33,498 bases of DNA from Gammaproteobacteria bacterium. Its GTDB lineage: Bacteria > Pseudomonadota > Gammaproteobacteria > Pseudomonadales > Azotimanducaceae. A program made the translations under genes and the position numbers. The stretch spans positions 1 through 33,498 of the forward strand of contig VXYL01000105.1 of assembly GCA_009846005.1 (NCBI GenBank), given 5' to 3'. Below the pieces are notes generated by a model, which was not told where the DNA came from, made no database searches, and saw only the letters and a list, made by a program, of their open reading frames with translations. Below are positions 19,001-33,290 of the stretch, one piece after another (within the stretch, counting starts at the first letter, position 1; the number at the start of each line of letters is the position of its first letter).

Positions 19001-19498
19001 GCGTACTGCGAACTCGCCCCGTTCCGTCACCGTGTCCACGGCCCGATAGCCGGCACTCGCCAGGCGTTGCCGCTCGGTGGCGGTGTCGAAGGTCTCGCCC
19101 ACGGCAACGACCAACGACTGGCTTTGTACGAAACTCGGCGGGGCGAGGCGTTGCAGCAGTGTGGTGACCGGCACGACCAGGACGCCGCGTTTCGTGCCGG
19201 GCAACTCGTAGAGCGCCTCCAGGCGCTCGGAGACGATGTCCTGGTGGGCCGAGAAGTGATCGTAGGGGAGGGTTTCCCAGTCGGGGAAGGTCAGCACGGG
19301 TACCGCTTCCGACGCGAAGAAGCGTATCTCGCTCATCGCGTGAAACGCAGCCTCAGTGTCCGTCGCCACGTAGACGACGAGGTGTTCCGTGCTGGCGGCG
19401 AGCCGAGCGGCCATCAAGGAACCACCACTTCCGTGGAGTCCCTGCCAGTTGTGGATGAGGTGTGGCGCCGGGGTCTCGGGCGCCGGCGAAGATCGCAT
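16001..19498 (-). CDS. mfd: Transcription-repair coupling factor Mfd
   Basis: At 1165 residues this is a full-length Mfd (E. coli 1148). The N-terminal UvrB-homology part recruits UvrA (FPDWETLPYDHFS near 75-90). The RNA-polymerase interaction domain at about 485-550 contains GSPVVHIDHGVGRY. The RecG-like translocase follows, with Walker A GDVGFGKTE near 630, VIDEEHRFG as the DExH box, and GRVGRSHRQAYAYL as motif VI. The TRCF C-domain ends the protein. It pushes stalled RNA polymerase off lesions and loads the excision repair proteins. It is transcribed divergently from the permease-like gene and heads the mfd-csiV pair. No truncation or frameshift seen. Confidence 0.98.
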   Translation of the reverse strand: MRSSPAPETPAPHLIHNWQGLHGSGGSLMAARLAASTEHLVVYVATDTEAAFHAMSEIRFFASEAVPVLTFPDWETLPYDHFSAHQDIVSERLEALYELPGTKRGVLVVPVTTLLQRLAPPSFVQSQSLVVAVGETFDTATERQRLASAGYRAVDTVTERGEFAVRGSLVDIFPMGGTNPVRIDLFDDEIDSLRLFDADSQRTVSETQRVRVLPAREMPIDAAGIARFRAAWHRTFDVDVRRCHVYQDVSSGLAPQGVEYYLPLFHEDTATLFDYLPDDTVFVLDADIDAAAKRHLAEVAARFESLRHDVERPILPPDALYMRARDLDARIKRYGRARIDPGAARRRHRVNFAGSPLPELAANHRAQDPAARLRSFVGNAGARILLTAETPGRKVHLEEFLGRARVATADAAAFASFVEADTKLGIAIAPIERGFWLPDLAVVTETEIFGHRTDKAVAERTRRRGIDPDLVIKNLIELNIGSPVVHIDHGVGRYRGLETLTIDGHPMEFLTLEYAEEAKLYVPVTALHLVSRYAGADEEHAPLHRLGSDQWAKAKRKAAERARDAAAELLDIYARREASMSFAFGKPDDDYRRFVEQFEFEPTPDQDAAIDTVIEDLTGAKATDRLICGDVGFGKTEVAMRAAYLAVASGRQVAVLAPTTLLAQQHFETFGDRFADWPVSIEVVSRLRADGEVNAVAERLATGQVDIVIGTHRLLGKAFAFKNLGLVVIDEEHRFGVRQKEQLKNLRAEVDVLALTATPIPRTLNLSLSGIRDLSIIATPPARRLSIKTFVMQKRRSVIAEAIARELARGGQVFFVHNEVRTIERAADEVAELAPQARIGIGHGQMAKRKLGDVMADFYHRRINVLVCTTIIENGIDIPNANTMVIERADKFGLAQLHQLRGRVGRSHRQAYAYLMTPHPKAMTADAAKRLDAVQAAGELGIGFTLATHDLEIRGAGELLGEEQSGQIANIGFSLYMEMLERAVAAIKAGKTPNLDAPLPTSHDVNLHVPALIPDDYLPDVHARLIMYKRVANAAEQAELDELKIEMIDRFGLLPDPVRNLFRTTTIKLDASRLGIDRIDVGPAGGRIEFTAETVVAPITIVRLVQREPDTFRYRDGDGRAGNRLLVRRGMAHPDTRFQFIEALLKELHGDTATDRRESLELASR

Positions 19499-19598
19499 CT
19501 GGCTATGTTATCACCGACAGCGTGGCGAACGACGCGCGGTCGGTGGCAGGCGTAGAATCGGTTGCCTTTTCGCGGTCCGGAGACAACCGGTACGTAGC

Positions 19599-22500
19599 GT
19601 GAGTTTCGACCCGACGCTCGCAGTTGCGATTGCCCAGATGCGGTCCGCCCGACGGTCTATTCGGACCTGGGCATTCGGGATGCTTGCGGGGGGAACCACG
19701 ATCGCGGTCAGCGTCTTCTTCGCCTACGCGCACGGCGTGCTTGGCAGCGCCAACGCAGGACGGTTCGGGCCACGATTTCTGATCGCGGAACTGGGTGTCT
19801 ACGTGCTTTGGCTGAGTCTCGTCGGCGTCGTGTTCATCGCGTTCGATCTCCGCCACGGCGACATGCGGGCACGCATCGCCGAAGCCCTCGACACGCGATC
19901 CGTCTCCAACTTGACCATGATCGCCGGCCGGACGCTCGGGGTGGTCGCCGCGGTGGCGTTGCCGGTGCTGGTCACCGTCGCCTTGCTGCAGGTCTTGGGC
20001 ACCGTGGCCCGTGCTACGGGCTTCTGGATGGGCGATCCAATCGAGCCGGTATCGCTGGCATCGTTCCTCTTGCTTGACGTTCTCGTGGCAGTCTTTGTCT
20101 GGACCGCGACGGTGTTGCTGCTGTCATCCGTGTTTGGCAATCGCCTCGCGGTAGTCCTCGTGGCCGCGATGCTCTTGGCGCTGCAGTCCTGGGCGGTGAC
20201 GACGGTTCCCGCGTACCTGCTGCCTGCCGTCTCGGTGGTGGCCAATAGCGGCGGTTGGGCGTCGGACATCACCGCGCAGTTCGCGGATCTGGACCGTGTT
20301 CTGCAGCGTAGCGCGGTGCTGGTTCTCGGCGTCGGCATTTGCATCTTGGCGGCGGCGCTGTACCCGCGGCCGGCGGGTGGTTCCCGTTTCCGGCTGTCAG
20401 TTCTCGGCACGGTCGTCGCGCTGGTCGCGGTCACCGGCCTTGCCGCGGTTGCCTTGCGGGGCGTGGGAACGATCGATAAACGGGACGGGTGGCTCGCGGT
20501 CCATCGCGCGGCGGCGACAACAGAGACTGCGTGGCCAGACATCGAACGGATCACCGGTGCCGCAAGGATCGATCCGGGAGAGCAGCTCAACCTCGACATC
20601 GCCCTGCATTTGCGGGTCAAGGAAGCGGAGACCCCATCCTGGACATTCAGCTTCAATCCCGGTTTGCGGGTGACGGCGCTGCGGCACGGTGAGAAGGCGA
20701 TTCCCTTCGTCCACGAGTCGGGTTTGCTGACGATCGAGACCGGTCGGTTGATGGAAGCTGGACCGACTTTCGTCCTCTCGATGCAGGCCCAGGGCGTCCC
20801 CGACCCGGACTTCGGCTATTTGGACAGTGCCGCGGATTGGCGACGCCGACCGGGCACGAACCTGCTGAAGTTCTTGGGAACCGAGGCATCCGTGTTCCAC
20901 CGCAACTACGTCGCTCTGACGCCGGCGGTGCACTGGCTTCCGGCGTCCGGCAGCAACGTCGACCGGGAGGATCCGTCGAAGCGGTTGGCGGATTTCTTTC
21001 ATCTCGACCTTGCGGTTGAAGTTCCCGCCGGGTGGTGGGTTGCCGGACCCGGTCGGCAACCGCAAGGCGAGGGCGCGTCGAGGCTCCACCGGCTCCGGAC
21101 CGACTCGCCTATCCAAGAAGCGGCGCTTTTTGCGTCGGACTTCGAGCGGATAGCGGTGAACGTGCAGGGTATCGAACTGGAATTGCTCGTGACCCCCAAG
21201 CACATGCCGAATCTCGATTACTTCGCCGAGGCCGGCGACGAGATCACGAAGCAGCTGACTGACATCTTTGCCAAACTCGATGGTACGGATCTCGCCTACC
21301 CCGAACGTGTCCTGAGCCTGGTTGAAGTACCCTCGTCGCTACGGACCTATCGCGGTGGCTGGCGAATGGATGCGGTGCGCACGCCCGGTGTCGTGTTGCT
21401 GCGCGAGGAGGGTCTGCCCACGTTCCGACCCGGCTACTACGGTCGGGAGGTTCCTGCCGATCGCCGACAGGATTTCCTCGTCTCCCGGCTACACATCTAC
21501 TTCCTCAACGCCTGGAACAGCGGCAATGCGTATCAAGGCTTGGCCGGCAACCTGATTGCGTCGACGAGCCCGGTAGGCACGGGGGCCGTAGCACTCGATG
21601 CCGTCACCCGTGATTTGGCATACCGTGTGCTGAATCCGTGGGGGCCCGAAAGCTCCGTCTGGTTCTCAGCGTATTCTTACGACACGGACGCGGTTTTGGG
21701 CTCCTCGGCGTGGGACATGATCGCAGGTCTTGCCACCGGTCACTTCGGAAGCATGTTGGGCAGAACGTCCTGGTGGCGCGGCGACATGTGGGAGGAAGCC
21801 GCGCGAACTTCGCTCGCCCAAGCCGGCGGCGGCCAAGACCCTCACCTCGAGTTCAGCCTGCTGTCCCTGAAGGGCAATGCGTTGGAAGACATCGTGCTCG
21901 GCGTCGCGGGGGTCCAGAAAACGGGTGCGCTGTTGGGCGAACTGCGCCGCCGCTACGAAGGCCGGCCGTTTTCGAAGGACGACTTCCTGATTGTCGCGAA
22001 CGAAACTATGGCTGACCTGTCCGGAATCATCGACGAGGCTCTGCACGAACCCGCCCTGCCGGGTTTCCTGGCTTCACCTGCTACCGTGGTCCGCCTTGCG
22101 GACGACGACACCGGACGATCGCGCTATCACGTCACCGTACATGTCTACAACGGCGAGCCGGTCGCTGGATGGCTACGATTTGCCCAATACGACATGATAT
22201 GGGGCGAGGGGGAGCCGATTCGGGTGCCGGGCGAGTCGTCAACGGAGATCGGCAGGGTATACGACGCACCCCCAGATCAGCTCTGGCTGCACCCCTACCT
22301 GTCCTTGAACCGGCGGGAGATCCGACTCGATCTAGTGAATTCCGCGCCGCCGGCATTGCCGGATGAGGATGGTTTCGTAGGTACAAGGCCGAGTACGTGG
22401 AGGCCGCCGGCGGTCGAAGGGATCGTCGTCGACGATCTCGAACCGGGGTTTACCTGGGAGGGTGCGTCCACGCGCACGGCTCGTAGGAGCCTCGTCGACC

Positions 22501-23000
22501 AATACCTCGGTTGGACGGAGACCCTCGACCACGGGCTCCCCGTTCGAGCAAGCGAGGCAGGAGCTTGGGTTCGGCGGAACGTCCCATCCGCTTGGGGCAG
22601 TTACCGTCGCACAGTCGCCATGGCTTCCCCCGGTGGCACGGACTATCGGGTTTTCTTCACGGCGGAACTCGACGACGGCTCGTGGCACCTGGACTACTAC
22701 CTGCCGGAGCGGCGCATCCCCGGGAGGTGGGAAGGCGATACGGAACGACTCATGTACCCGCGGTTGGGCACCATGGAGATGAAACTGAGCGCCTTCGAAA
22801 ACGCCGACTATGCGACGGGGAGTTCCCGAAGGCCAGTGCGGGAATGGAGCATCGACTTCGACGCCGGCCTTGGCGAAACGGGCTGGAACAAGCTCGGCCA
22901 GTTCGACCATCCGGGCGGCGAGATTCGGCTTGAGATATCGAATCGCACGTCCGGAGACGCGGTTGTCGCCGATGCGGTTCGATGGCGCCGGGCAGAATAG
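19599..23000 (+). CDS. ABC-2-like permease / M1-peptidase-like / golvesin-like fusion protein
   Basis: The GTG at 19599 gives 1133 residues. The first 290 hold about seven hydrophobic segments (24-45, 64-84, 110-135, 155-178, 182-205, 237-255, 266-286), like the permease half of ABC permease/M1 aminopeptidase fusions. Residues about 300-930 resemble an M1-type peptidase region facing the periplasm, but no HExxH zinc motif exists; the expected area (about 620-640) reads SRLHIYFLNAW. From about 940 the protein has a golvesin-like beta domain ending VADAVRWRR. No ATPase gene is adjacent. Probable role: a non-catalytic binding or scaffold membrane protein, not a working aminopeptidase. A longer reading frame upstream overlaps mfd and is not used. 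No strong ribosome site precedes the GTG. Confidence 0.7.
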   Translation: MSFDPTLAVAIAQMRSARRSIRTWAFGMLAGGTTIAVSVFFAYAHGVLGSANAGRFGPRFLIAELGVYVLWLSLVGVVFIAFDLRHGDMRARIAEALDTRSVSNLTMIAGRTLGVVAAVALPVLVTVALLQVLGTVARATGFWMGDPIEPVSLASFLLLDVLVAVFVWTATVLLLSSVFGNRLAVVLVAAMLLALQSWAVTTVPAYLLPAVSVVANSGGWASDITAQFADLDRVLQRSAVLVLGVGICILAAALYPRPAGGSRFRLSVLGTVVALVAVTGLAAVALRGVGTIDKRDGWLAVHRAAATTETAWPDIERITGAARIDPGEQLNLDIALHLRVKEAETPSWTFSFNPGLRVTALRHGEKAIPFVHESGLLTIETGRLMEAGPTFVLSMQAQGVPDPDFGYLDSAADWRRRPGTNLLKFLGTEASVFHRNYVALTPAVHWLPASGSNVDREDPSKRLADFFHLDLAVEVPAGWWVAGPGRQPQGEGASRLHRLRTDSPIQEAALFASDFERIAVNVQGIELELLVTPKHMPNLDYFAEAGDEITKQLTDIFAKLDGTDLAYPERVLSLVEVPSSLRTYRGGWRMDAVRTPGVVLLREEGLPTFRPGYYGREVPADRRQDFLVSRLHIYFLNAWNSGNAYQGLAGNLIASTSPVGTGAVALDAVTRDLAYRVLNPWGPESSVWFSAYSYDTDAVLGSSAWDMIAGLATGHFGSMLGRTSWWRGDMWEEAARTSLAQAGGGQDPHLEFSLLSLKGNALEDIVLGVAGVQKTGALLGELRRRYEGRPFSKDDFLIVANETMADLSGIIDEALHEPALPGFLASPATVVRLADDDTGRSRYHVTVHVYNGEPVAGWLRFAQYDMIWGEGEPIRVPGESSTEIGRVYDAPPDQLWLHPYLSLNRREIRLDLVNSAPPALPDEDGFVGTRPSTWRPPAVEGIVVDDLEPGFTWEGASTRTARRSLVDQYLGWTETLDHGLPVRASEAGAWVRRNVPSAWGSYRRTVAMASPGGTDYRVFFTAELDDGSWHLDYYLPERRIPGRWEGDTERLMYPRLGTMEMKLSAFENADYATGSSRRPVREWSIDFDAGLGETGWNKLGQFDHPGGEIRLEISNRTSGDAVVADAVRWRRAE

Positions 23001-23013
23001 CGGCAAATAGCCT

Positions 23014-23029
23014 TTGACAGCGTTGTCAA
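23014..23029. promoter_or_regulatory. LacI-type operator 1 (overlaps receptor -35)
   Basis: TTGACAGCGTTGTCAA is a 16-base palindrome with one mismatched pair and the central CG step typical of LacI/GalR-family operators. It differs from operators 2 and 3 by one base in the 14-base core. A repressor here would cover the -35 element. Confidence 0.75.
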
Positions 23030-23049: not shown

Positions 23050-23065
23050 TTGACAACGTTGTCAT
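23050..23065. promoter_or_regulatory. LacI-type operator 2 (at receptor transcription start)
   Basis: The core TGACAACGTTGTCA (23051-23064) is a perfect 14-base palindrome with a central CG. It lies 36 bases centre-to-centre downstream of operator 1, over the predicted start point. The identical 14-mer recurs at 31207-31220. Confidence 0.8.
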
Positions 23066-23121: not shown

Positions 23122-26085
23122 ATGCCTAACCAAGTCTTCAAGAAGACGCCGATCGCGGCTGCGGTTTCGCTTGCCATCGCCAGTAGCGCGGCTACTGCAC
23201 AGGAAGCGGAACAGGCAGGCCAGGCCGGGCCCATCGAAGAGGTCGTCGTCGTGGGGATCCGTGAGAGCCTGAAGAAGTCGATGGATTTGAAGCGGAACCG
23301 CGATGGGATCGTCGACGCGATCACCGCGGAGGACATCGGCGACTTCCCTGACAGCAACCTCGCGGAGTCGCTACAGCGCATCACCGGGGTGTCCATCGAC
23401 AGGGAACGTGGCGAGGGCGCGCGGGTCACAGTTCGGGGTTTCGGACCCGACTTCAATCTCGTGCTTTTGAACGGTCGCCAGATGCCGACGAGCAGCGGGC
23501 TCGGCCGGTCATTCGACTTTGGCAACTTGGCGTCGGAAGGCATCAGTGCGGTGGAGGTCTACAAGACCGGGACGGCAGACGTGCCGACCGGCGGCATCGG
23601 GGCCACCCTGAACATCCGCACGACCCGCCCGCTTGAAGCGCCGGGCATGAATTTCACCGCCGCCGGCAGCGGGCTTCACGACACCTCGACGGAGGACGGC
23701 GGCGCATTCACGCCCGAAGTCTCGGCGCTGTTCTCGAACACCTTCGCCGACGACACCATCGGCATCGCCCTGAGTGCCGTGCGACAGGACCGCAACAACG
23801 GGGCAAACACCGCGAGCGTTGGTGGCTGGCGCACATTCCCCGGCGAAGTGGACAATTGCTGGTGCGGCATCGGCCCATCCGAGTGGGGTGGGATTCCCCC
23901 GCACACCGACCCCAACCAGCAGAACAGGCCCGGGGCGGGCGACCTCTATTCCGTGCCGCAGAACATCGGCTACGAGCTCGCGGAGTACGAGCGGCTGCGC
24001 ACCAACGGCCAGTTGACCTTGCAGTGGCAGGCATCCGACGCGGTTCGGGCAACGCTCGACTACACGTTCTCGGAGGTGGAACTCGAACGCACCTACACCA
24101 ACCTGTCGGCTTGGTTCAACTTCGGTGGCCAGGAGACGCTGTGGACCGACGGGCCGCAGGCGTCGCCGATCGTCTACACCGAGAACCTTCCCAACAGCGA
24201 CTACTCCATGGCCGCCGGCAACGATGCGTGGATCGCCCAGAACGGCGCCACGGGCCTCAATCTGGTTTGGGACGTTACGGATCGGCTTTCCGTCGAGTTC
24301 GACTACCACGACTCCACCGCCGAGCGGAAACCGAACAGCCCCTTCGGCGACTCGTCGCTGCTGTCCACGGCCGCGTTCACCCGGGACCGGACAACCGGGC
24401 ACTTCGATGCCGAGTTGCCGGTGCTCGAGCTCACCCTCAGACGCCCGCTGTCCCCGGACGACATGATCGTCACGGGAAGCGTGTTCACCAACAACTTCGC
24501 CAAGATGAACATCGAGCAAACCCACGTCGGCGGCGTGTTCGACTTCGACACGGGCTTCATCGAGAACATCGATTTCGGCATCCAGCTGACCGAAGTGAAC
24601 AACCGTTCGGCGGGCTCGGTGGTTCAGCGCGATGCGTGGGGCGGCGTGACCCAACCCGGTGCGATCGCGGATCTGTTGACGCCTGCCTCCGCGTTCGACG
24701 CGTTCGACCAGATTCCCGGCGGCGACGACAATCGGCGTCAGGTCGACTACTTCACGTTTGACATGAGGGAGGTGATCGCGCGCACCGAAGCGCTGATGGC
24801 GTCGGGCGAAGCGTCCACGTTCTTCCTGCCCGACATGGGGGATTGCGGGACGGGGCTTTGTACGTCGAGCCGCTTCACCTCCGACAGAAGAACGACCGAG
24901 GAGTCGCTGGCGGCACACATCCAGGTGAACATGTCCGCGGAGTGGGGGACAACCCCCGTCGACCTCAGGCTGGGCCTGCGCTACGAGGATACCGACATCT
25001 CGTCCCAGGCGCTGTCGCCGGCCTTCACGAGAATCGATTGGGTGGCGGGCAACGAGCTGTCGGCGGTTCAGGGTGCGCCCGACTTCACCTCGCTCGAAGG
25101 CAACTACGACCTGCTGCTGCCCAGCGTCGACTTCAAGATCGATTTGACCGACAACCTGGTCGGCCGGCTCTCGTATAGCTCGACCCTGACGAGACCCAAC
25201 TACGGCGACATCCAAGGTGGGCAGACCATCAATTCCCTGCTGCGGATCGATGGCGGCACGGGCAACCGCGGCAATCCCAACCTGCTGCCGTTCGAGTCGA
25301 GGAACAGCGACGTCTCGTTCGAGTACTACTACGGCGGTGACAGCTATGTCGCCGTGGGGTACTTCCACAAGGATGTCGACAATTTCATCGGCACGTCGTC
25401 GGTGGTCGAGGAGACTTTCGGTCTGCCGCACCCGGCCCTCGGGCCGCTGGGCGACGAAGCCCGGGCAGCAACCGGTAGTAGCGACGGCGGTGCGCTGTAT
25501 ACATGGATTCTCGAGAATCGCGCTGATGCTGCGGGCGTCGATGCGGCGAACGGCGTGATCACCGGGGTTCAAGGACGCGACCCGGCGGCGCCGTTCAATC
25601 TCACGATACCGATCAATATCGAACAGGCCACGATGAAGGGTTGGGAGGTGGTCGCCCAGCACAACTTCGGCGACAGCGGGTTCGGCGTCATTGCCAATGC
25701 CACGATCGTCGATGCGGATGTGGGATACGACAACTTCAGCCTGGCCCAGCAGTTCGTGCTGACGGGCTTAAGCGACTCGGCCAACCTGATTGCGTTCTAC
25801 GACAAGAATGGCATTAGCGTCCGCTTGGCCTACAACTGGCGCGACGATTTCCTGGCCGGTACGGGGCAGAACAACGTCGGTGCCGGACCGCCGACCCATG
25901 TGGCTGCCTACCAGCAGGTGGACATAAGCGCGAGCTATTGGTTTACGGACAATATGCAGGTGTACGTCGACATGCTCAACGTCACCGACGAGACGACCCA
26001 TGTCTACGGTCGCCACCGGCTGCAGACCCTGTTCGCCGGTCAGGCCGGCCCACGCTACAACGTTGGGTTCAGGTACAAGCTCTAG
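23122..26085 (+). CDS. TonB-dependent outer-membrane receptor (Xanthomonas/Caulobacter type)
   Basis: A 987-residue receptor. A signal peptide (about 1-27, ending AATAQ) is followed by a TonB-box-like EEVVVVG at 39-45 and a plug domain with DGIVDAITAEDIG, FPDSNLAESLQR and ITGVSIDRERGEGARVTVRG (adjacent blocks, about 60-110). A large beta-barrel follows and ends YNVGFRYKL. This pattern is the TIGR01782-like family that imports oligosaccharides and other carbon sources using TonB energy. The paired LacI-type operators at its promoter and the same operator before the GH3 gene point to a glucan-type sugar as ligand. A strong terminator follows. It is the only outer-membrane transporter in the window. 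Confidence 0.95.
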   Translation: MPNQVFKKTPIAAAVSLAIASSAATAQEAEQAGQAGPIEEVVVVGIRESLKKSMDLKRNRDGIVDAITAEDIGDFPDSNLAESLQRITGVSIDRERGEGARVTVRGFGPDFNLVLLNGRQMPTSSGLGRSFDFGNLASEGISAVEVYKTGTADVPTGGIGATLNIRTTRPLEAPGMNFTAAGSGLHDTSTEDGGAFTPEVSALFSNTFADDTIGIALSAVRQDRNNGANTASVGGWRTFPGEVDNCWCGIGPSEWGGIPPHTDPNQQNRPGAGDLYSVPQNIGYELAEYERLRTNGQLTLQWQASDAVRATLDYTFSEVELERTYTNLSAWFNFGGQETLWTDGPQASPIVYTENLPNSDYSMAAGNDAWIAQNGATGLNLVWDVTDRLSVEFDYHDSTAERKPNSPFGDSSLLSTAAFTRDRTTGHFDAELPVLELTLRRPLSPDDMIVTGSVFTNNFAKMNIEQTHVGGVFDFDTGFIENIDFGIQLTEVNNRSAGSVVQRDAWGGVTQPGAIADLLTPASAFDAFDQIPGGDDNRRQVDYFTFDMREVIARTEALMASGEASTFFLPDMGDCGTGLCTSSRFTSDRRTTEESLAAHIQVNMSAEWGTTPVDLRLGLRYEDTDISSQALSPAFTRIDWVAGNELSAVQGAPDFTSLEGNYDLLLPSVDFKIDLTDNLVGRLSYSSTLTRPNYGDIQGGQTINSLLRIDGGTGNRGNPNLLPFESRNSDVSFEYYYGGDSYVAVGYFHKDVDNFIGTSSVVEETFGLPHPALGPLGDEARAATGSSDGGALYTWILENRADAAGVDAANGVITGVQGRDPAAPFNLTIPINIEQATMKGWEVVAQHNFGDSGFGVIANATIVDADVGYDNFSLAQQFVLTGLSDSANLIAFYDKNGISVRLAYNWRDDFLAGTGQNNVGAGPPTHVAAYQQVDISASYWFTDNMQVYVDMLNVTDETTHVYGRHRLQTLFAGQAGPRYNVGFRYKL

Positions 26086-26097
26086 GAGTCCCCTCTC

Positions 26098-26126
26098 CGG
26101 CTGCACTTCGGTGCAGCCGTTTTTTT
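26098..26126 (+). terminator. Rho-independent terminator after the receptor gene
   Basis: CGGCTGCAC (26098-26106) pairs perfectly with GTGCAGCCG (26111-26119) around a stable TTCG loop, followed by seven T. It ends the receptor transcript 13 bases after its stop. The halogenase gene begins 52 bases later with no clear promoter between, so it may depend on read-through. Confidence 0.93.
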
Positions 26127-26178: not shown

Positions 26179-27729
26179 ATGGCGATGAACCGTGCAATCC
26201 GCAAGGTCGTAATCGTCGGCGGTGGCACGGCAGGCTGGATCACGGCCAACGTCATCGCCGCCGAGTGTCGACGAACTCACCGCGAGGTGTCCCTCGTCGA
26301 GTCGCCGGATGTCCCGACGATTGGCGTCGGCGAAGGCACGTGGCCATCGATGCGCATGACGCTTCGCCGCATCGGGCTCTCGGAAGCCGAGTTCGTTCGA
26401 ACGTGCGATGCGAGCTTCAAGCAGGGCACGCGGTTCTACGGCTGGTCTGGTCGCAAGGGCCGGGATGAGTACTGCCATCCGTTTAGCCTGCCGGTCGAAT
26501 ACGCGAGTCTGAATCCCGCCACGTATTGGCTGGCATCGGGGTCGAAGACGCCGTTCGCCGAGTTCGTGACGCCCCAAGCTAGATTGATCGAACTGGGCTT
26601 GGCACCCAAGCAGGCCACCACACCGGAATACGCGTTCGCGTTGAATTACGCCTACCATCTCGATGCGGGCCGATTCGCCTCGTTGCTCAAGGAGAAGGCC
26701 GTGGGTGCCGGTGTGCGCTACATCGTCGGCAACGTCGAACATGTTGACCCGTCCTCGGGCGGCGACATTGCCGCGGTCGTACTCGACACGGGCGAACGGG
26801 TCGACGGCGATCTGTTCGTCGACTGCACGGGCCAACGCGCGCTGTTGATCGGCGGTCACTACGGCGTGCGATTGGTTTCCGCCAGGGATTGGCTGTTCAA
26901 CGATCGGGCCATCGCGGTGCAGGTCCCTTATGCACGCCCCGATGCGCCAATCGCATCGGCTACCTATGCGACGGCGCAGCCGGCGGGCTGGATCTGGGAT
27001 ATCGGCCTGCAGACGAGGCGTGGCATCGGCTACGTGTATTCGAGTGCGCATGTCGACGACGAAGCGGCGCATGGGGCGTTGCAGGGTTATGTCGAGCGAA
27101 CGTCGCCAGGGGTTGACGTCGGCGCCTTGTCGTACCGGACGATACCGTTCGAGCCCGGCTACCGCGCGGTGTTCTGGCACAGGAACTGCGTGGCGGTAGG
27201 GCTCGCCGCGGGTTTCGTCGAGCCTCTGGAAGCCTCGGCGCTCGCGCTGATCGAACAGTCGGCGGCCATGATCGCGGAGCAGTTGCCCCGTGACCGACAC
27301 ATCATGGAAGTCGCCGCCAAGCGCTTCGATTCCAAGATGCACCATCACTGGGAGCGGATCGTCGAATTCCTGAAGCTGCACTACGTTACCAGCGTCCGCG
27401 CCGACGAATACTGGCGCGACAACCGGGACCCGACCTCGTGTCCTCGGGGCCTGCGCGACAAACTAACCCTGTGGCAACAGCAAACTCCCTGGCACGATGA
27501 TGCGCCACGGGTGGACGAGCTGTTCCCGTCGGCAAGCTACCAGTACGTACTCTACGGGATGGGGTTCAGGCCGAAATTCGATGTCCGGAACGCCTCGCCG
27601 CAGGACGAAACACGCGCCCGGGCGGATCGGGCGTTCCACGACACGCGAACCAAATCCGAACGCCTTGCCGAGGTGCTGCCCGACAATCGGACACTGTTGT
27701 GTAGCATCGTGCAACGCCCGGCGGGATAG
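26179..27729 (+). CDS. Flavin-dependent tryptophan-halogenase-like protein, copy 1
   Basis: A 516-residue FAD enzyme of the tryptophan halogenase family. GGGTAGW (14-20) binds FAD. Lys81 in SFKQG corresponds to the catalytic lysine of PrnA/RebH, and EPLE (348-351) carries the partner glutamate. The family motif WxWxIP is present only as WIWDIG (271-276): the final proline is glycine, a departure from halogenases with known activity. Relatives beside TonB receptors form a group separate from antibiotic-pathway halogenases, and substrates are mostly unknown. It lies after the receptor's terminator and heads the cassette of four genes on one strand. The ATG at 26185 is an alternative start. FADH2 would have to come from a reductase encoded elsewhere. 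Confidence 0.88.
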   Translation: MAMNRAIRKVVIVGGGTAGWITANVIAAECRRTHREVSLVESPDVPTIGVGEGTWPSMRMTLRRIGLSEAEFVRTCDASFKQGTRFYGWSGRKGRDEYCHPFSLPVEYASLNPATYWLASGSKTPFAEFVTPQARLIELGLAPKQATTPEYAFALNYAYHLDAGRFASLLKEKAVGAGVRYIVGNVEHVDPSSGGDIAAVVLDTGERVDGDLFVDCTGQRALLIGGHYGVRLVSARDWLFNDRAIAVQVPYARPDAPIASATYATAQPAGWIWDIGLQTRRGIGYVYSSAHVDDEAAHGALQGYVERTSPGVDVGALSYRTIPFEPGYRAVFWHRNCVAVGLAAGFVEPLEASALALIEQSAAMIAEQLPRDRHIMEVAAKRFDSKMHHHWERIVEFLKLHYVTSVRADEYWRDNRDPTSCPRGLRDKLTLWQQQTPWHDDAPRVDELFPSASYQYVLYGMGFRPKFDVRNASPQDETRARADRAFHDTRTKSERLAEVLPDNRTLLCSIVQRPAG

Positions 27730-27737
27730 GAAGAACC

Positions 27738-28475
27738 GTGGCCGATTTCGCGCTGTTGAACAACGTCGACCACCAGGACGTGAGGATCATCACGGACCGG
27801 TCGTCGCGCTATGGCGACAACGTGATGCTCGCGCTGACCTTCCCGTTCGAGTTCCGGAACGTTCAAGCCCACTATCCGATCCTGTTCCAGGGCAATGCCA
27901 GCGATGGCTACTACCCCGTCGCCTTGTTCGGCTTCGAGAAGGGCGAGAACCTGTTTCTCGACGAAGCCGGGTGGCACGCGGGGTACATCCCCGCGATGAT
28001 CCAACGCGAACCGTTCCTGATCGGCTTCCAGGAGTCCGCTCGCGACGGCGAGGGCGAGCGAACACGGGTGCTGTCTCTTGACATGGAGCATCCACGCGTC
28101 AATACGGCCATGGGGGAGCCTCTTTTCCAGCCGCTGGGCGGCAGGACGCCCTTCCTGGAGAATGCCGCCAACCTGCTGGAGACGATCTACCTGGGGATCG
28201 AGCACAACAAGACGTTCGTTGCCGCCTTGCAGGAACACGATCTGCTCGAGGCCTTGACGTTTGAGATCGCCTTGAAGGACGGTACCCGGAACCAGTTGAT
28301 CGGCTTTCACTGCCTCGTCGAGGAGAAGGTGCAGGCGTTGTCCGGCGCAACGCTGGGCGACTTCAACGAGAAGGGCTATCTCATGCCGATGTTCATGGCG
28401 TTGGCGTCCCTTGCGAACATGGAGCGCCTCGTCGACCTGAAGAACAAACGCGTCGCGGGAGAATCCGGCCAATGA
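27738..28475 (+). CDS. SapC-family protein
   Basis: A 245-residue protein of the SapC family (PF07277-like), marked by HYPILFQGN, YYPVALFGFEKGENLFLD and AGYIPAMIQREPFLIGF in the N-terminal half. There is no signal peptide and no membrane helix. The family was named for an S-layer secretion locus in Campylobacter, but its biochemical role is not established, and no S-layer protein or transporter is in the window. It starts with GTG, five bases after AGGAAG, nine bases after the first halogenase. Its TGA overlaps the cupin-like ATG by four bases, so the two are translationally coupled. SapC, cupin and halogenase genes recur together beside TonB receptors in other proteobacteria. Confidence 0.85.
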   Translation: MADFALLNNVDHQDVRIITDRSSRYGDNVMLALTFPFEFRNVQAHYPILFQGNASDGYYPVALFGFEKGENLFLDEAGWHAGYIPAMIQREPFLIGFQESARDGEGERTRVLSLDMEHPRVNTAMGEPLFQPLGGRTPFLENAANLLETIYLGIEHNKTFVAALQEHDLLEALTFEIALKDGTRNQLIGFHCLVEEKVQALSGATLGDFNEKGYLMPMFMALASLANMERLVDLKNKRVAGESGQ

Positions 28476-29488
28476 CCGCCGGCGTCGATTTGCGGCCCAT
28501 GGCGTCGATCGACTGTCCGGACGGGGTCGTTCCGGACGCAGTGGTGAATGCCGCCGAACCCGTTGTGCTGCGGGGATTGATCCGGGATTGGCCCGCGGTT
28601 CGCGAATGCGGCGCCTCGATTCCGGCCGCTGCGGGCTACCTGTCGAAGTTCTGGACGAACGCGCCGGTAACCGCCTACGCAGGCAGGGCGTCGATCAACG
28701 GGCGGTTCTCGTACAACGACGACTTCACCGGTTTCAATTTCGATCGGGGCAAAGCGCCCTTGTCGCAGATTTTCGACAAGCTCGCCGAAACGGGCCGGGA
28801 AGACCGTCTTGCGACCATCTACGTGGGTTCCACACCCGTGGACGGTTGGCTACCCGGGTTCCGCGGCGACAACGACGTCGCGCTTCCGGTCCCGGATCCG
28901 CTGGTGAGTTTCTGGCTTGGCAGCCAGACCCGGATCTCCGCGCACTTCGACTTTCCGGACAATCTGGCCTGCGTGGTGGCGGGGACAAGACGGTTCACGC
29001 TCCTGCCGCCGGATCAGATTGGCAACCTCTACGTCGGCCCGCTCGATCCGACGCCTTCCGGTCAGGCGATCAGCCTGGTCGACTTCAATGATCCGGACCT
29101 GACGCGACATCCGCGGTTCCGAGACGCGCAGAGGCATGCGCGGTCGGCGGTGCTCCACCCGGGGGATGCCATACGCATCCCGAGCATGTGGTGGCACCAC
29201 ATCGAGTCGCTGAAGGACTTCAATCTTCTTATCAACTATTGGTGGTGCACGACGCCCGCGTCGATGGGGTCGCCTACCGACGCCCTCATCCACGCCATCC
29301 TGTCGCTGCGGGATCTGCCCGAGAGGCAGCGGGAAGCCTGGCGCGGGCTCTTCAATCACTACGTATTCGATGCCGATGAAGAGGTCTATCGGCACATTCC
29401 CGAGCGCGGCAGAGGGTGCTTGTCGACGCTCGACGAAGCGGGGGCAAAGCAGTTGCGCGCGCTGCTGCTCAACAGGTTGAACCGGTAG
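28472..29488 (+). CDS. Cupin-like (JmjC/cupin_8) putative Fe(II)/2-oxoglutarate oxygenase
   Basis: A 338-residue protein of the cupin_8/JmjC-like type. The iron-binding triad is likely His158 and Asp160 (SAHFDFPDN) with His242 or His243 (MWWHHIES), preceded by HPGDAIRIPSMWW. The core FTLLPPDQIGNLYVGP is typical of this group, whose known members hydroxylate protein or tRNA side chains using 2-oxoglutarate. No signal peptide is seen. It overlaps SapC by four bases and is followed 18 bases later by the second halogenase. All residues needed for an active oxygenase appear present. The target is unknown; cassette context suggests it acts on the same molecule as the halogenases. Confidence 0.82.
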   Translation: MTAGVDLRPMASIDCPDGVVPDAVVNAAEPVVLRGLIRDWPAVRECGASIPAAAGYLSKFWTNAPVTAYAGRASINGRFSYNDDFTGFNFDRGKAPLSQIFDKLAETGREDRLATIYVGSTPVDGWLPGFRGDNDVALPVPDPLVSFWLGSQTRISAHFDFPDNLACVVAGTRRFTLLPPDQIGNLYVGPLDPTPSGQAISLVDFNDPDLTRHPRFRDAQRHARSAVLHPGDAIRIPSMWWHHIESLKDFNLLINYWWCTTPASMGSPTDALIHAILSLRDLPERQREAWRGLFNHYVFDADEEVYRHIPERGRGCLSTLDEAGAKQLRALLLNRLNR

Positions 29489-29506
29489 CACGGCGCGCCC
29501 GGGGTA

Positions 29507-31009
29507 ATGGAGGCGGTTTTGGAGCGCAGAAAGATCCACAAGGTCGTGATCGCCGGCGGGGGCACCGCCGGATGGATGGCGGCCGCATCGTTGGCGAAGC
29601 TTCTCGGCAAAACGCTCGACATCACCTTGGTCGAGTCGGACGAGATCGGCACGGTGGGCGTGGGCGAGGCCACGATTCCCACCCTGCTGACCCTGCATGA
29701 GCTCTTGAAGATCAAGGAACAGGATTTCGTCAGGGCGGTGCAGGGCACGTTCAAGCTCGGCATCTCGTTCGAGAACTGGCGGGACGTGGGCGAGCACTAC
29801 ATCCATTCCTTCGGTTGGACCGGCAAGGACAGTTGGGCCGCAGGCTTCCAGCACTTCTGGCTCAAGGGCCGGAAGATGGGGATAAGCCGGGAGTTCGGCG
29901 AATACTGCAAGGAGTGGGTCGCGGCGAAGCGGAATCGTTTCGCGGTGTTGCCCAATCACGGACTCAACTATGCCTACCACTTCGATGCGTCCCTTTACGC
30001 GAGATTTCTGCGTGGCATGGCCGAGGCGCATGGCGCCGTGCGGCAGGAAGGCCGCATCGAGGCGGTCGAGCAAGACCCGGCAAGTGGCTACATCACGGGG
30101 ATCCGCCTGCAGTCCGGCCAACTCATCGAAGGCGACCTGTTCATCGATTGCACCGGTTTTAGGGGGCTCCTGATTGAACAGACCCTCAACGCCGGCTACG
30201 AGGATTGGCGACATTGGTTGCCATGCGACGGCGCAGTCGCCGTGCAAACCGAAGCCCAGGCGCCGCCGATCCCGTACACCCGTTCCATCGCGAGGGAGGC
30301 TGGCTGGCAGTGGCGGATTCCGCTGCAGCACCGCGTCGGCAACGGCGTGGTCTTCGGTTCCGCATACTGGTCCGACGACGAGGCCGTGGCCCGTCTGCTG
30401 GGCAATGTCGAAGGTGCCGCGCTCACCGAGCCCCGGGTCATCAAGTTCCATACCGGCCAACGGCGTCGGCACTGGCACAAGAACTGCGTTGCCATGGGGC
30501 TGGCATCCGGGTTCATCGAGCCGTTGGAGTCAACCAGCATCCACCTGATCCAGCGCAGCATCATCCGCTTGATGCAGATGTTTCCCTACGACGGCATCCG
30601 GGAACCCGATGTCGACGAGTTCAACAACCAGATGAAATTCGAGATCGACAACGTGCGGGACTTCATCGTCCTGCACTACCACGTCACGAATCGGAGAGAT
30701 ACGCCGTTCTGGCGATACTGCGCATCCATGGACATACCGGATTCGCTTCGCCACCGCATCGAGCTGTTCAGGCAAGCCGGCCGGGTGTTCAAGGTGCCCA
30801 CCGAGTTGTTCGGCGAGAACTCGTGGATTCAGGTGATGCTCGGCCAGGGGCTCGTCCCGGAGCAGTACCATCCGATCGTCAACATGATGAGCGACGACGA
30901 ATTGACACGGTTCCTTTCGGGCATTCACAGCACGGTCGCCAACATGATCGGGCAGCTTCCCGAGCACCAGCGGTTCATCGACCACTACTGCAAGGCGAGT
31001 CCGGCGTAG
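29507..31009 (+). CDS. Flavin-dependent tryptophan-halogenase-like protein, copy 2
   Basis: A 500-residue family member. It has GGGTAGW at 17-23, Lys83 in TFKLG matching the catalytic lysine, the intact motif WQWRIP (267-272), and the EPLEST segment (338-343) with the partner glutamate. All hallmarks of an active flavin halogenase are therefore present, in contrast to copy 1. The two copies share the family frame but differ widely (insertions after residue 90 and different C-terminal thirds), so they are not a recent duplication. The gene lies 18 bases after the cupin gene and ends the cassette. Halide preference and substrate cannot be told from sequence. Confidence 0.9.
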   Translation: MEAVLERRKIHKVVIAGGGTAGWMAAASLAKLLGKTLDITLVESDEIGTVGVGEATIPTLLTLHELLKIKEQDFVRAVQGTFKLGISFENWRDVGEHYIHSFGWTGKDSWAAGFQHFWLKGRKMGISREFGEYCKEWVAAKRNRFAVLPNHGLNYAYHFDASLYARFLRGMAEAHGAVRQEGRIEAVEQDPASGYITGIRLQSGQLIEGDLFIDCTGFRGLLIEQTLNAGYEDWRHWLPCDGAVAVQTEAQAPPIPYTRSIAREAGWQWRIPLQHRVGNGVVFGSAYWSDDEAVARLLGNVEGAALTEPRVIKFHTGQRRRHWHKNCVAMGLASGFIEPLESTSIHLIQRSIIRLMQMFPYDGIREPDVDEFNNQMKFEIDNVRDFIVLHYHVTNRRDTPFWRYCASMDIPDSLRHRIELFRQAGRVFKVPTELFGENSWIQVMLGQGLVPEQYHPIVNMMSDDELTRFLSGIHSTVANMIGQLPEHQRFIDHYCKASPA

Positions 31010-31205: not shown

Positions 31206-31221
31206 TTGACAACGTTGTCAT
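31206..31221. promoter_or_regulatory. LacI-type operator 3 upstream of the GH3 gene
   Basis: The core TGACAACGTTGTCA (31207-31220) is a perfect palindrome identical to operator 2. Its TTGACA (31206-31211) may double as a -35; the -10 17-18 bases on is poor (TAACGT at 31230-31235). It ties the GH3 gene to the same regulator as the TonB-dependent receptor. Confidence 0.8.
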
Positions 31222-31337
31222 CCGCACCGTAACGTGTCTGCGTTGGCGTTGGCCAACCTACCACCCGGTTGGACTTTGGGTACGAAAGGGCGGGCGTCAG
31301 GCGGCTTTTGTCGGCGCCCGATCTGAATGCATGCAAG

Positions 31338-33290
31338 ATGCGTGAAATAGCTTCGCGATGGCCAGCGAGCGCCAGTCGGCTCGATCCCATGCACCCGTCC
31401 GAACGACGCGTCCAGCGCATTGTCGAGCGATGCCTGCGGGGCTTGAGCGTCGAACAGAAAGTCGGCCAGATGGTCCAGGCGGAGATCGCCAACGCGACGC
31501 CGACCGAGGTTGCCGAATTCGCCCTTGGATCGATTCTGAACGGCGGCGGCAGCTTCCCCGGCGGCAACAAGCAAGCGAGCGTCGACGACTGGCGGGCGCT
31601 CGCCGACGCCTACCACGGCGCCGTACGGAAAAGCACGCATTCGGACCACCCCGTGCCCATCCTTTGGGGAACCGATGCGGTCCATGGCCATTCGAACGTC
31701 TACGGTGCGACCGTGTTTCCCCACAATATCGGCCTCGGGGCGGCGCGCGATGGCGACCTGATGGAGGCCATCGCCGTTGCCACCGCCCGAGAGGTGGCCG
31801 CCACGGGGATTGACTGGACGTTCGCGCCGACGCTCGCGGTGGCCCGGGACGACCGCTGGGGTCGCACCTACGAGAGCTTCGCGGAACACCCCGACGTGGT
31901 GGTCGAATACGCATCCCGCATCGTTGCCGGTCTGCAGGGCGTGGCCGGTGAACCGGACTTCCTGGGCCCGGGTCGGATATTGGCCACCGGGAAGCATTTT
32001 CTTGGAGAAGGCCACACGACGGACGGCCGGGACCAGGGCGATGTCGTCTGCTCCGAGGACACGCTGCGGGACCTCCATGCCGGAGGACACCGGGCGGCGA
32101 TCGCGGCCGGCGTGCAGACCGTGATGGCCGCCTTCAACAGTTGGCATGGCACCAAGGTCCACGGCCACCGCTACCTGTTGACCGACGTGCTGAAGGGCGC
32201 CCTTGGTTTCGATGGCTTCGTGGTCAGCGACTGGGATGGGTTTCTGCAGGTTGCCGAGGACCGCGCCGAGGCATGTGGCAGTTCGGTGAATGCCGGCGTC
32301 GATTTGCTGATGGTGGGCGTCGAGTGGCGGGCCGCCTACCACGACCTGCTTCAGCAGGTCTCCGCTGGCGCCGTACCCATGGCACGGATCGACGATGCGG
32401 TGCGGCGCATTCTGCGTGTGAAGGCACGGGCGGGACTGGTCTCATGTGCCCGGTCCTCAGCGCGTCCCGCGACGGTCGAGGAATCGGTTGTGGGCGAACC
32501 GAGCCATCGCGAACTGGCACGGCGGGCGGTTCGCAGGTCGCTGGTTCTGCTCAAGAACGACGGGGTGCTGCCCCTGAAGCGCGATGCCAAGGTGCTGGTC
32601 GCGGGCGACGGCGCGGACAATATCGGCAAACAGTGCGGCGGCTGGACCCTTACCTGGCAGGGAACGGGGAACGACAACTCGGACTTTCCCAACGGCATGT
32701 CGTTGTTCGATGGGTTCGTCGAGGCAACGGCCCACCATGGTGGCTCCGCCATACTCAGCCCGAACGGCGAGTTCGGGGGAGACTCGCCCGACGTTGCCGT
32801 CGTGGTGTTCGGCGAAGAACCCTACGCGGAAGGAGACGGCGACCGGGACCACTTGAGCTATTCGACGCTTCATGCGGAACCCCTCGCGATCCTGCGCCGG
32901 TTACAGGAACGAGGCATACCCACGGTGTCGGTCTTCCTCACGGGCCGACCCATGTGGGTGAATCCCGAACTCAATGCATCCGATGCCTTCGTTGTCGCCT
33001 GGCTACCAGGGACCGAAGGCGGGGGGGTGGCCGACGTGCTGTTTCGCGGCCCCAACGGCAAGTTGGATCACGACTTCCATGGTCGGCTGTCGTTCTCCTG
33101 GCCGCGCCATGCCATGCATACGCCGCTCAACGTTGGCGACACCGACTATGCGCCGTTGTTCCCCTATGGATACGGTCTGCGATACGGCGATGCCATTGAC
33201 CGCCCGGGCCGGCTCGACGAGACCGATTCCGCGCGCGGCATGCCGGCCCGCGACAGGCCCTGCACAATGGGCTCGACCTACCCGAGGTAA
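31338..33290 (+). CDS. GH3 family beta-glucan exohydrolase (beta-glucosidase-like)
   Basis: With the ATG at 31338 the protein has 650 residues. The N-terminal TIM-barrel shows EQKVGQM, LWGTDAVHGH, GKHF (near 218-221) and the nucleophile Asp298 in VVSDWDGF. The second domain has FGEEPYAEGDGD, where the barley ExoI-type acid/base glutamate lies, and the family end FPYGYGLRYG. This type removes glucose from ends of beta-1,3/1,4-glucans. No signal peptide is seen from any start, suggesting cytoplasmic action on imported oligosaccharides. The start is uncertain: TTG at 31269 and ATG at 31389 are in frame, but homology-like sequence (WPASASRLDP) begins soon after 31338. It is shorter than ExoP-like enzymes, which carry an extra C-terminal domain. 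Operator 3 controls it. Confidence 0.9.
   Translation: MREIASRWPASASRLDPMHPSERRVQRIVERCLRGLSVEQKVGQMVQAEIANATPTEVAEFALGSILNGGGSFPGGNKQASVDDWRALADAYHGAVRKSTHSDHPVPILWGTDAVHGHSNVYGATVFPHNIGLGAARDGDLMEAIAVATAREVAATGIDWTFAPTLAVARDDRWGRTYESFAEHPDVVVEYASRIVAGLQGVAGEPDFLGPGRILATGKHFLGEGHTTDGRDQGDVVCSEDTLRDLHAGGHRAAIAAGVQTVMAAFNSWHGTKVHGHRYLLTDVLKGALGFDGFVVSDWDGFLQVAEDRAEACGSSVNAGVDLLMVGVEWRAAYHDLLQQVSAGAVPMARIDDAVRRILRVKARAGLVSCARSSARPATVEESVVGEPSHRELARRAVRRSLVLLKNDGVLPLKRDAKVLVAGDGADNIGKQCGGWTLTWQGTGNDNSDFPNGMSLFDGFVEATAHHGGSAILSPNGEFGGDSPDVAVVVFGEEPYAEGDGDRDHLSYSTLHAEPLAILRRLQERGIPTVSVFLTGRPMWVNPELNASDAFVVAWLPGTEGGGVADVLFRGPNGKLDHDFHGRLSFSWPRHAMHTPLNVGDTDYAPLFPYGYGLRYGDAIDRPGRLDETDSARGMPARDRPCTMGSTYPR

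Follow-up and report, generated by a model that had tools for sequence, protein, structure and literature searches.

Xcc4156 (PDB 6y1w) is a halogenase with an open active site that its authors consider possibly suited to peptides, and the native substrates of Xcc4156 and of BrvH (6frl) are given as unknown in the excerpts consulted of the same paper (PMC7336383). The halogenase-like flavoprotein QhpG dihydroxylates tryptophan of a leader-bearing protein before export (PMC7876137, in excerpt), and in the CUT loci of Xanthomonas a TonB receptor, a glycan enzyme and a regulator are found together (PMC1790865, in excerpt). Here we describe a cassette of four genes (hal1, SapC, Cupin_8 and hal2) behind a TonB-dependent receptor gene in a marine Gammaproteobacteria bacterium of the Azotimanducaceae (assembly GCA_009846005.1, 4.96 Mb, genome G000; contig VXYL01000105.1, positions 1 to 33,498, the whole of which is referred to as the window). 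We tentatively propose that these genes form a protein-modification kit which may act on the receptor before its export, inside a glycan-utilisation locus.

In common with Xcc4156 and BrvH, hal2 keeps the catalytic Lys, the catalytic Glu and the WxWxIP motif, whereas a receptor, SapC or Cupin_8 neighbour goes unmentioned for those enzymes in the excerpts consulted of PMC5945002 and PMC7336383. The closest structures to hal1 are PDB 2pyx and 9ltb ('tryptophan halogenase'; 516 and 487 bits, respectively); the former is cited as an unnamed, unpublished entry (PMC7336383, in excerpt), and a paper naming 9ltb was not found in the open-access literature. By analogy, QhpG could be a precedent for modification of the receptor, as a halogenase-like flavoprotein with a protein tryptophan target that is reached before export; it differs in that hal1 falls below the QhpG equivalog cut-off and the cassette has neither a radical SAM enzyme nor a protease. 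Cupin_8 aligns with FIH and JMJD5 over the HxD...H core but is bacterial. Like a CUT locus, the window combines a receptor gene with a glycosidase gene, here with a palindrome common to both; unlike the description of those loci, in which the word 'halogenase' is absent from the main text (PMC1790865), it also holds the cassette. Halogenase, SapC and cupin are likewise absent from the main texts of PMC5943477 and PMC6952198 on glycan loci, and SapC and cupin from that of PMC1790865. No open-access paper was found that brings together SapC and tryptophan halogenase (with or without TonB-dependent receptor, supplements aside), halogenase with SapC and TonB, flavin-dependent halogenase with TonB-dependent and cupin, or tryptophan halogenase with TonB-dependent and polysaccharide utilization; the two-term pairings of flavin-dependent or tryptophan halogenase with TonB do occur in such papers.

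Recurrence of the cassette beside TonB-dependent receptors

The genes lie on one strand in the order TonB receptor, hal1, SapC, Cupin_8, hal2, followed by a GH3 glycosidase gene.

23122..26085, + strand: TonB-dependent receptor, 987 amino acids, TIGR01782
26179..27729, + strand: hal1 (PF04820, separate clade found with SapC), 516 amino acids
27738..28475, + strand: SapC family protein (PF07277), 245 amino acids, GTG start
28472..29488, + strand: Cupin_8 (PF13621, JmjC-like), putative iron oxygenase, 338 amino acids
29507..31009, + strand: hal2, PF04820 halogenase-like, closest to Xcc4156 (6y1w), 500 amino acids

All four cassette reading frames are intact. Their coordinates agree with the tight packing reported in the first-pass annotation, which was made from the sequence alone (gaps of 8 and 18 bases and one 4-base overlap), and Pfam scores confirm the families named there: 403 and 638 bits for hal1 and hal2 (PF04820), 223 bits for Cupin_8 (PF13621) and 212.2 bits for SapC (PF07277, cut-off 28.9). 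The receptor scores 604.6 bits against TIGR01782 (cut-off 310), and its structural model (predicted local distance difference test score, pLDDT, 88.0) retrieved TonB receptors in Foldseek. Its signal peptide starts with MPNQVFKKTPIAAAVSLAIA; none of the four cassette proteins has an obvious signal peptide by eye, no predictor having been used.

SapC was found in 18 of 38 near genomes, the window's own included. A receptor orthologue is present in 11 of the 16 genomes of the genus, and SapC occurs in 10 of these 11 compared with 0 of the 5 without the receptor (Fisher p = 0.0014); in the exception, G005, the receptor is in fragments. Across 199 genomes of the phylum, again including the window's own, SapC was present in 67, PF04820 (E 1e-30) in 23 and both in 22 (Fisher p = 5e-11, uncorrected for kinship).

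Placement was analysed in 12 genomes picked for carrying both SapC and a PF04820 halogenase, with halogenase numbers that are lower bounds (best seven candidates per genome). Within this sample 51 of 57 halogenases lay within 5 kb of a TIGR01782 receptor, compared with 2.3 expected under uniform placement, and the receptor was upstream on the same strand for 41 halogenases. Seen from the receptors, 41 of 121 had a halogenase within 5 kb and 80 had no listed one. A halogenase was found within 3 kb of 20 of the 30 SapC copies (18 by coordinates, L114 and L122 by sequence). SapC copies are of two sorts, cassette-linked and standalone; around the standalone copies (84 loci) no recurrent neighbour was found, the widest cluster covering 11/84 with SapC and an antisense frame set aside.

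The cassette is modular. Besides the full form (receptor-hal1-SapC-Cupin_8-hal2) we observed receptor-SapC-Cupin_8-hal2, receptor-hal1-SapC, receptor-SapC-Cupin_8-SapC, receptor-Cupin_8, and a receptor with one or more halogenases. In the window's own class GH3 is the usual companion (23 of 30 non-duplicate full-cassette loci). The genomes G003, G007 and G011 hold second receptor copies (77-78% identity) and also a cassette, and the sister receptor of G002 (L038, G002:C455) has an in-frame stop and is fragmented in the assembly.

Agreement between receptor and halogenase trees

A tree was built of 128 receptors. The label 'unlinked' was given where the stretch covered (flanks of 1.5 kb for L162-L221 and under 1 kb for L242-L261) showed neither halogenase nor SapC nor Cupin_8; it required 14 changes on this tree, compared with a shuffled mean of 40.7 and none of 500 shuffles as low. 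The second group of unlinked receptors consisted of 20 controls, all chosen at over 5 kb from every listed halogenase; a halogenase came to light in L244 and Cupin_8 in L248 and L250, and these three were relabelled. On the same tree the full-cassette class (39 rows), which holds gammaproteobacterial loci and the alphaproteobacterium Croceicoccus, required 4 changes against a shuffled mean of 33.9. Together with the 51 of 57 halogenases near a receptor, this agreement between enzyme families and receptor subtypes bears out the earlier statement that such genes recur beside TIGR01782-like receptors, well beyond chance.

Distances between receptors also followed those between their nearest hal2-type halogenases (60 pairs, correlation coefficient r = 0.85), and the value fell to 0.63 (standard deviation, sd, 0.05; 0/1000 as high) when partners were shuffled among paralogues of the same genome. 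For 38 within-genome pairs r was 0.38 versus 0.19 shuffled (sd 0.09; 19/2000), and for 21 receptor-halogenase pairs without SapC it was 0.72 versus 0.19 (0/1000).

Conserved residues in the halogenase-like enzymes and the putative oxygenase

The window's hal2 has GGGTAGW, K, E and WxWxIP all present and aligns with Xcc4156 with just one single-residue gap. Throughout the SapC-linked hal2 clade GGGTAGW, K and E are kept in 43/43 rows and WxWxIP in 41/43. The hal1 clade keeps K and E in 48/48 rows and GxGxxG as well, with A at the second position in one row; in all 48 rows WxWxI[G/A] stands instead of WxWxIP and Ala replaces Ser after the catalytic Glu (E-A for E-S). Counted over halogenase-like rows as a whole, with five divergent rows of 122 excluded, the catalytic Lys and Glu are present in 117/117. 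To the Lys, the Glu, the WxWxIP proline and the serine that follows Glu we assign the roles familiar from halogenases.

The hal1 clade and SapC are visible together in 36 of 48 rows, a count biased by the many loci that were fetched by way of SapC. Eleven of the remaining 12 rows are the same genes with short flanks, and in the last (L215) SapC is 170 bases away. All six hal1-clade genes found independently, in the PF04820 scan of the 12 genomes, had SapC within 400 bases. Very divergent PF04820 proteins (L222:5480-6946 and L225:1841-3364) are found between two ordinary halogenases behind a receptor and are possibly non-catalytic partners, and the window's genome holds two weaker PF04820 matches (G000:C103:53786-54943 and G000:C62:8085-9164) for which LodB- or QhpG-like flavoproteins are a guess.

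The nearest PDB structures to Cupin_8 are FIH and JMJD5, both protein hydroxylases, and the HxD...H triad previously noticed in Cupin_8 aligns with that of human FIH. Other families can stand alongside the halogenase. Among annotated plasmid loci, Cupin_8 is next to the halogenase in L262 and L265, a DUF6445 gene lies between receptor and halogenase in L274 and converges with the halogenase in L263, and in L269 the halogenase is accompanied by a tetratricopeptide repeat (TPR) protein with 2OG-FeII_Oxy_5. Both DUF6445 sequences contain HxD...H...R, a pattern that looks 2-oxoglutarate-oxygenase-like by eye, and the presence of three different families alongside the halogenase (Cupin_8, 2OG-FeII_Oxy_5 with TPR, and DUF6445) is consistent with a kit that acts on the receptor. 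The SapC model is confident (pLDDT 96.8), and Foldseek against the PDB gave zero matches at E 0.001 or better, the best having E = 0.026. In L023:8636-11255 a receptor is followed by Cupin_8 between two SapC genes, and the stretch covered contains no halogenase.

Glycan enzymes change around a constant receptor

We opened 18 plasmid loci, picked for annotation and similarity (16 of 91 records matching hal2 and 2 of 43 matching SapC); less similar plasmid matches, for example from Streptomyces and Burkholderia, lie outside this sample. Catenovulum, Pseudoalteromonas, Sphingobium and Asticcacaulis are among the genera represented. An annotated TonB receptor was present in the gene run of the halogenase in 18/18, divergently transcribed in five (L267, L270, L271, L272 and L277), and beyond the enzymes it was the sole gene noticed in all 18. 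Carbohydrate enzymes were in view in 17/18, L265 having none. They comprise GH16/GH3, agarase, GH32 with amylosucrase, GH68, alpha-amylase, GH97, fucosidases, GH43 and GH9, so that the ligands, as inferred from the annotated enzyme names, would be beta-glucan, agar, sucrose, starch, fucosides and xylan. Because the glycan enzymes vary around a constant receptor and halogenase, the imported ligand was set aside as the substrate. The first-pass annotation had listed an aromatic group on that ligand among the candidate targets; this suggestion is not supported, since the same enzymes occur with sucrose, starch, agar and beta-glucan enzymes. Its remark that the locus lacks a natural-product core gene (non-ribosomal peptide synthetase, polyketide synthase or precursor peptide) and a flavin reductase holds for the eight window proteins scanned, which are part of the window's genes and among which short peptides were not sought; neither was seen in the annotations of the 18 plasmid loci.

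Shared palindromes and a hairpin

The locus carries further elements that the first-pass annotation does not mention.

23015..23028, + strand: operator-like palindrome, 1 mismatch to TGACAACGTTGTCA, 36 bases before the exact upstream copy
23051..23064, + strand: operator-like palindrome TGACAACGTTGTCA, starting 71 bases ahead of the receptor start
26098..26119, + strand: terminator-like hairpin and T run between receptor and hal1
31207..31220, + strand: operator-like palindrome TGACAACGTTGTCA, starting 62 bases ahead of the listed GH3 start
31269..33290, + strand: GH3 glycosidase gene, true start perhaps further in

The exact palindrome has two sites in the whole 4.96 Mb assembly, one 5' of the receptor and one 5' of GH3, and several sister loci likewise have paired sites 5' of the receptor. 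With up to 2 mismatches it was found near the receptor or GH3 in 10/10 cassette loci of the same genus or family and in 8/11 additional named loci of the sponge type (L044-L055, L053 excepted), but in none of 17 more remote ones. Since the palindrome is common to receptor and GH3, the locus looks like a glycan-utilisation locus, and judging by these sites receptor, cassette and GH3 look like one such unit with a dedicated regulator. In L024 the site and the listed GH3 start are 813 bases apart. The GH3 product itself reached none of the NCBIfam equivalog cut-offs.

In our own scan, a hairpin 3' of the receptor was present in 34/72 halogenase-linked loci (19/39, 12/26 and 3/7) versus 15/52 unlinked ones. 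It may set stoichiometry, yet it is no marker of the linked class. Upstream of the receptor, a 1203-amino-acid reading frame (window positions 19389-23000) has no Pfam or NCBIfam match at E 0.001 and a start that is permease-like by eye.

A signal-peptide motif enriched in linked receptors

A column-by-column independent-pair comparison (249 tests) pointed to a motif, F-x-[K/R/P], near the start of the receptor signal peptide and immediately ahead of its hydrophobic core. Raw counts in gammaproteobacterial receptors, with two rows unscorable, were 28/33 for the full cassette, 6/7 for halogenase with SapC, 13/16 for halogenase only and 10/44 for unlinked receptors. After correction, in which seven loci were set by hand to 'no motif' (F upstream of the likely start) and L183 was counted as linked since its contig ends there, the motif was present in 48/57 linked versus 6/43 unlinked receptors (Fisher p = 8e-13, kinship uncorrected). 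Independent pairs gave 4.7 for and 1.1 against over all rows (median p 0.25), 5.0 for and 0.4 against in Gammaproteobacteria (median p 0.0625), and 2.7 for versus 0.4 against when only SapC-linked receptors were used (median p 0.5).

Fresh receptors, scored with a slightly different rule for the start of the N-region, had the motif in 6/6 linked cases (L263, L266, L279, L301, L302 and L314), the link of L302 being a Cupin_8 match on the opposite strand, and in 4/9 unlinked cases (1.5 kb flanks, repeat loci excluded); it is also present in the unlisted receptor of L269. Outside Gammaproteobacteria it occurred in 0/5 full-cassette, 2/10 halogenase-only (0/10 corrected) and 2/7 unlinked receptors (0/7 corrected), and in 3 of 14 alphaproteobacterial plasmid receptors among the matches listed. 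Relatives of the halogenase, SapC, Cupin_8, DUF6445 or 2OG-FeII_Oxy_5 were not found alongside the six motif-bearing unlinked receptors, and none of ten scanned neighbour genes belonged to these families. The motif is thus enriched in linked gammaproteobacterial receptors, and kinship may explain the enrichment; it is not exclusive to them, as some unlinked receptors also carry it. In L184, a second receptor of the window's genome, W stands where most linked receptors have F.

Weighing the possible targets

A protein target, which the first-pass annotation had included among its candidates, is plausible given the open site of Xcc4156, the relative of hal2, and the likeness of Cupin_8 to FIH and JMJD5. 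Its further idea that the enzymes may act one after another on one target stays hypothetical; the set is modular, and no Trp conserved across linked receptors generally was found.

Several results weigh against the receptor as that protein. For six of the 57 halogenases in the 12 genomes no listed receptor lies within 5 kb (for two of them the distance is 6 to 7.5 kb), and the hal1-SapC pair L144 has its nearest listed TIGR01782 receptor some 100 kb away. Among 100 SapC loci of the phylum (part of all copies listed, covered to at most 8 kb on either side, many being cut short by contig ends), 79 had no receptor, halogenase or Cupin_8 nearby, the receptor model having been built from TIGR01782-type receptors so that other receptor types could escape it. 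L184 (G000:C93:12918-15869) is 77% identical to the window's receptor and cassette-free in its 1.5 kb flanks. SuxA of Xanthomonas imports sucrose and belongs to a locus that is described as having four genes, of which none is a halogenase (PMC1790865, in excerpt). The within-genome tree test was not significant for the full class (250/1000) and for hal1 (53/1000), and a matching tree can come from physical linkage alone, reflecting inheritance as a unit and not contact. Finally, when 87 class-wise representatives of the 128 receptors were compared for Trp columns, the 24 halogenase-only representatives had none above 0.6. The 16 full-cassette representatives have Trp above 0.6 at 236, 255, 331, 383, 506, 640, 735 and 906. 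A universal target Trp in the receptor was set aside in view of the halogenase-only class. The L144 pair, for its part, looks as if its receptor were served in trans.

Some of these results would suit a kit whose target is some other exported or surface protein or peptide, the receptor being a neighbour and both serving glycan uptake. The open site of Xcc4156 and an FIH-like oxygenase suit any protein, a hal1-SapC pair can be far from listed receptors and the Trp comparison found no target residue; however, it is the receptor alone, enzymes aside, that is seen in all 18 plasmid loci while carbohydrate enzymes change, and we regard this explanation as somewhat unlikely. Plant and algal glycans can bear phenolics, and a small aromatic, either such a phenolic or a cellular indole, might be the substrate for detoxification or as a signal. 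BrvH slowly brominates free indole, although its authors doubt indole as the natural substrate (PMC5945002, in excerpt). A small aromatic is distinctly unlikely in our view, given the same enzymes in sucrose, starch, agar and beta-glucan loci and that no aromatic pathway was noticed in the 18 plasmid-locus annotations.

More doubtful still is that hal1 is a Trp monooxygenase like QhpG, with hal2 alone halogenating, or neither: the 48/48 replacements of the WxWxIP Pro by G/A and of the Ser after Glu by Ala, and a weak match to the QhpG equivalog NF049967 (50.8 bits), speak for it, but the cut-off of 240 is not reached and every row retains the catalytic Lys and Glu. That the genes co-travel by linkage alone, with no common target, is very improbable. 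Linked genes share trees anyway and 80/121 receptors have no listed halogenase within 5 kb, yet gene order and modules persist in both Alpha- and Gammaproteobacteria, and the halogenase can have other oxygenase-like families for neighbours.

The reading that we favour, at somewhat less than even odds, is that the kit modifies the receptor. It draws on the recurrence beside TIGR01782 receptors, the company of SapC and PF04820, the match of receptor class with enzyme set and of receptor with hal2 distances, the constant receptor among changing glycan enzymes, the three families found beside the halogenase, the conserved catalytic Lys and Glu, and QhpG. If the receptor is indeed the target, a sugar signal would turn on receptor and GH3 together through the common operator-like palindrome, and the hairpin 3' of the receptor would allow more receptor than enzyme to be made. 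The proteins of the kit would work on the nascent receptor chain in the cytoplasm, ahead of Sec export. SapC would hold this chain or present it, Cupin_8 would hydroxylate one of its side chains in the manner of FIH, and its aromatic side chains, tryptophan most probably, would be halogenated or hydroxylated by hal1 and hal2; export and insertion of the modified receptor would follow. A wider version holds that TonB sugar receptors of many Proteobacteria are brominated or hydroxylated in the cytoplasm before export by class-matched enzymes, with SapC as a presenting protein of a new kind and the gammaproteobacterial F-x-[K/R/P] serving as a leader-like recognition tag, by analogy with the leader peptides of peptide natural products; this is speculative and, to us, distinctly doubtful.

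Implications for open-site halogenases

The pairing with receptors provides a concrete, testable substrate candidate for open-site halogenases, namely the neighbouring receptor. Should the receptor prove not to be the target, the search still narrows to something that accompanies the receptor rather than the sugar. If it is, outer-membrane nutrient receptors would bear halogen or hydroxyl modifications, SapC would gain a role, and there would be natural protein halogenases matched to their targets.

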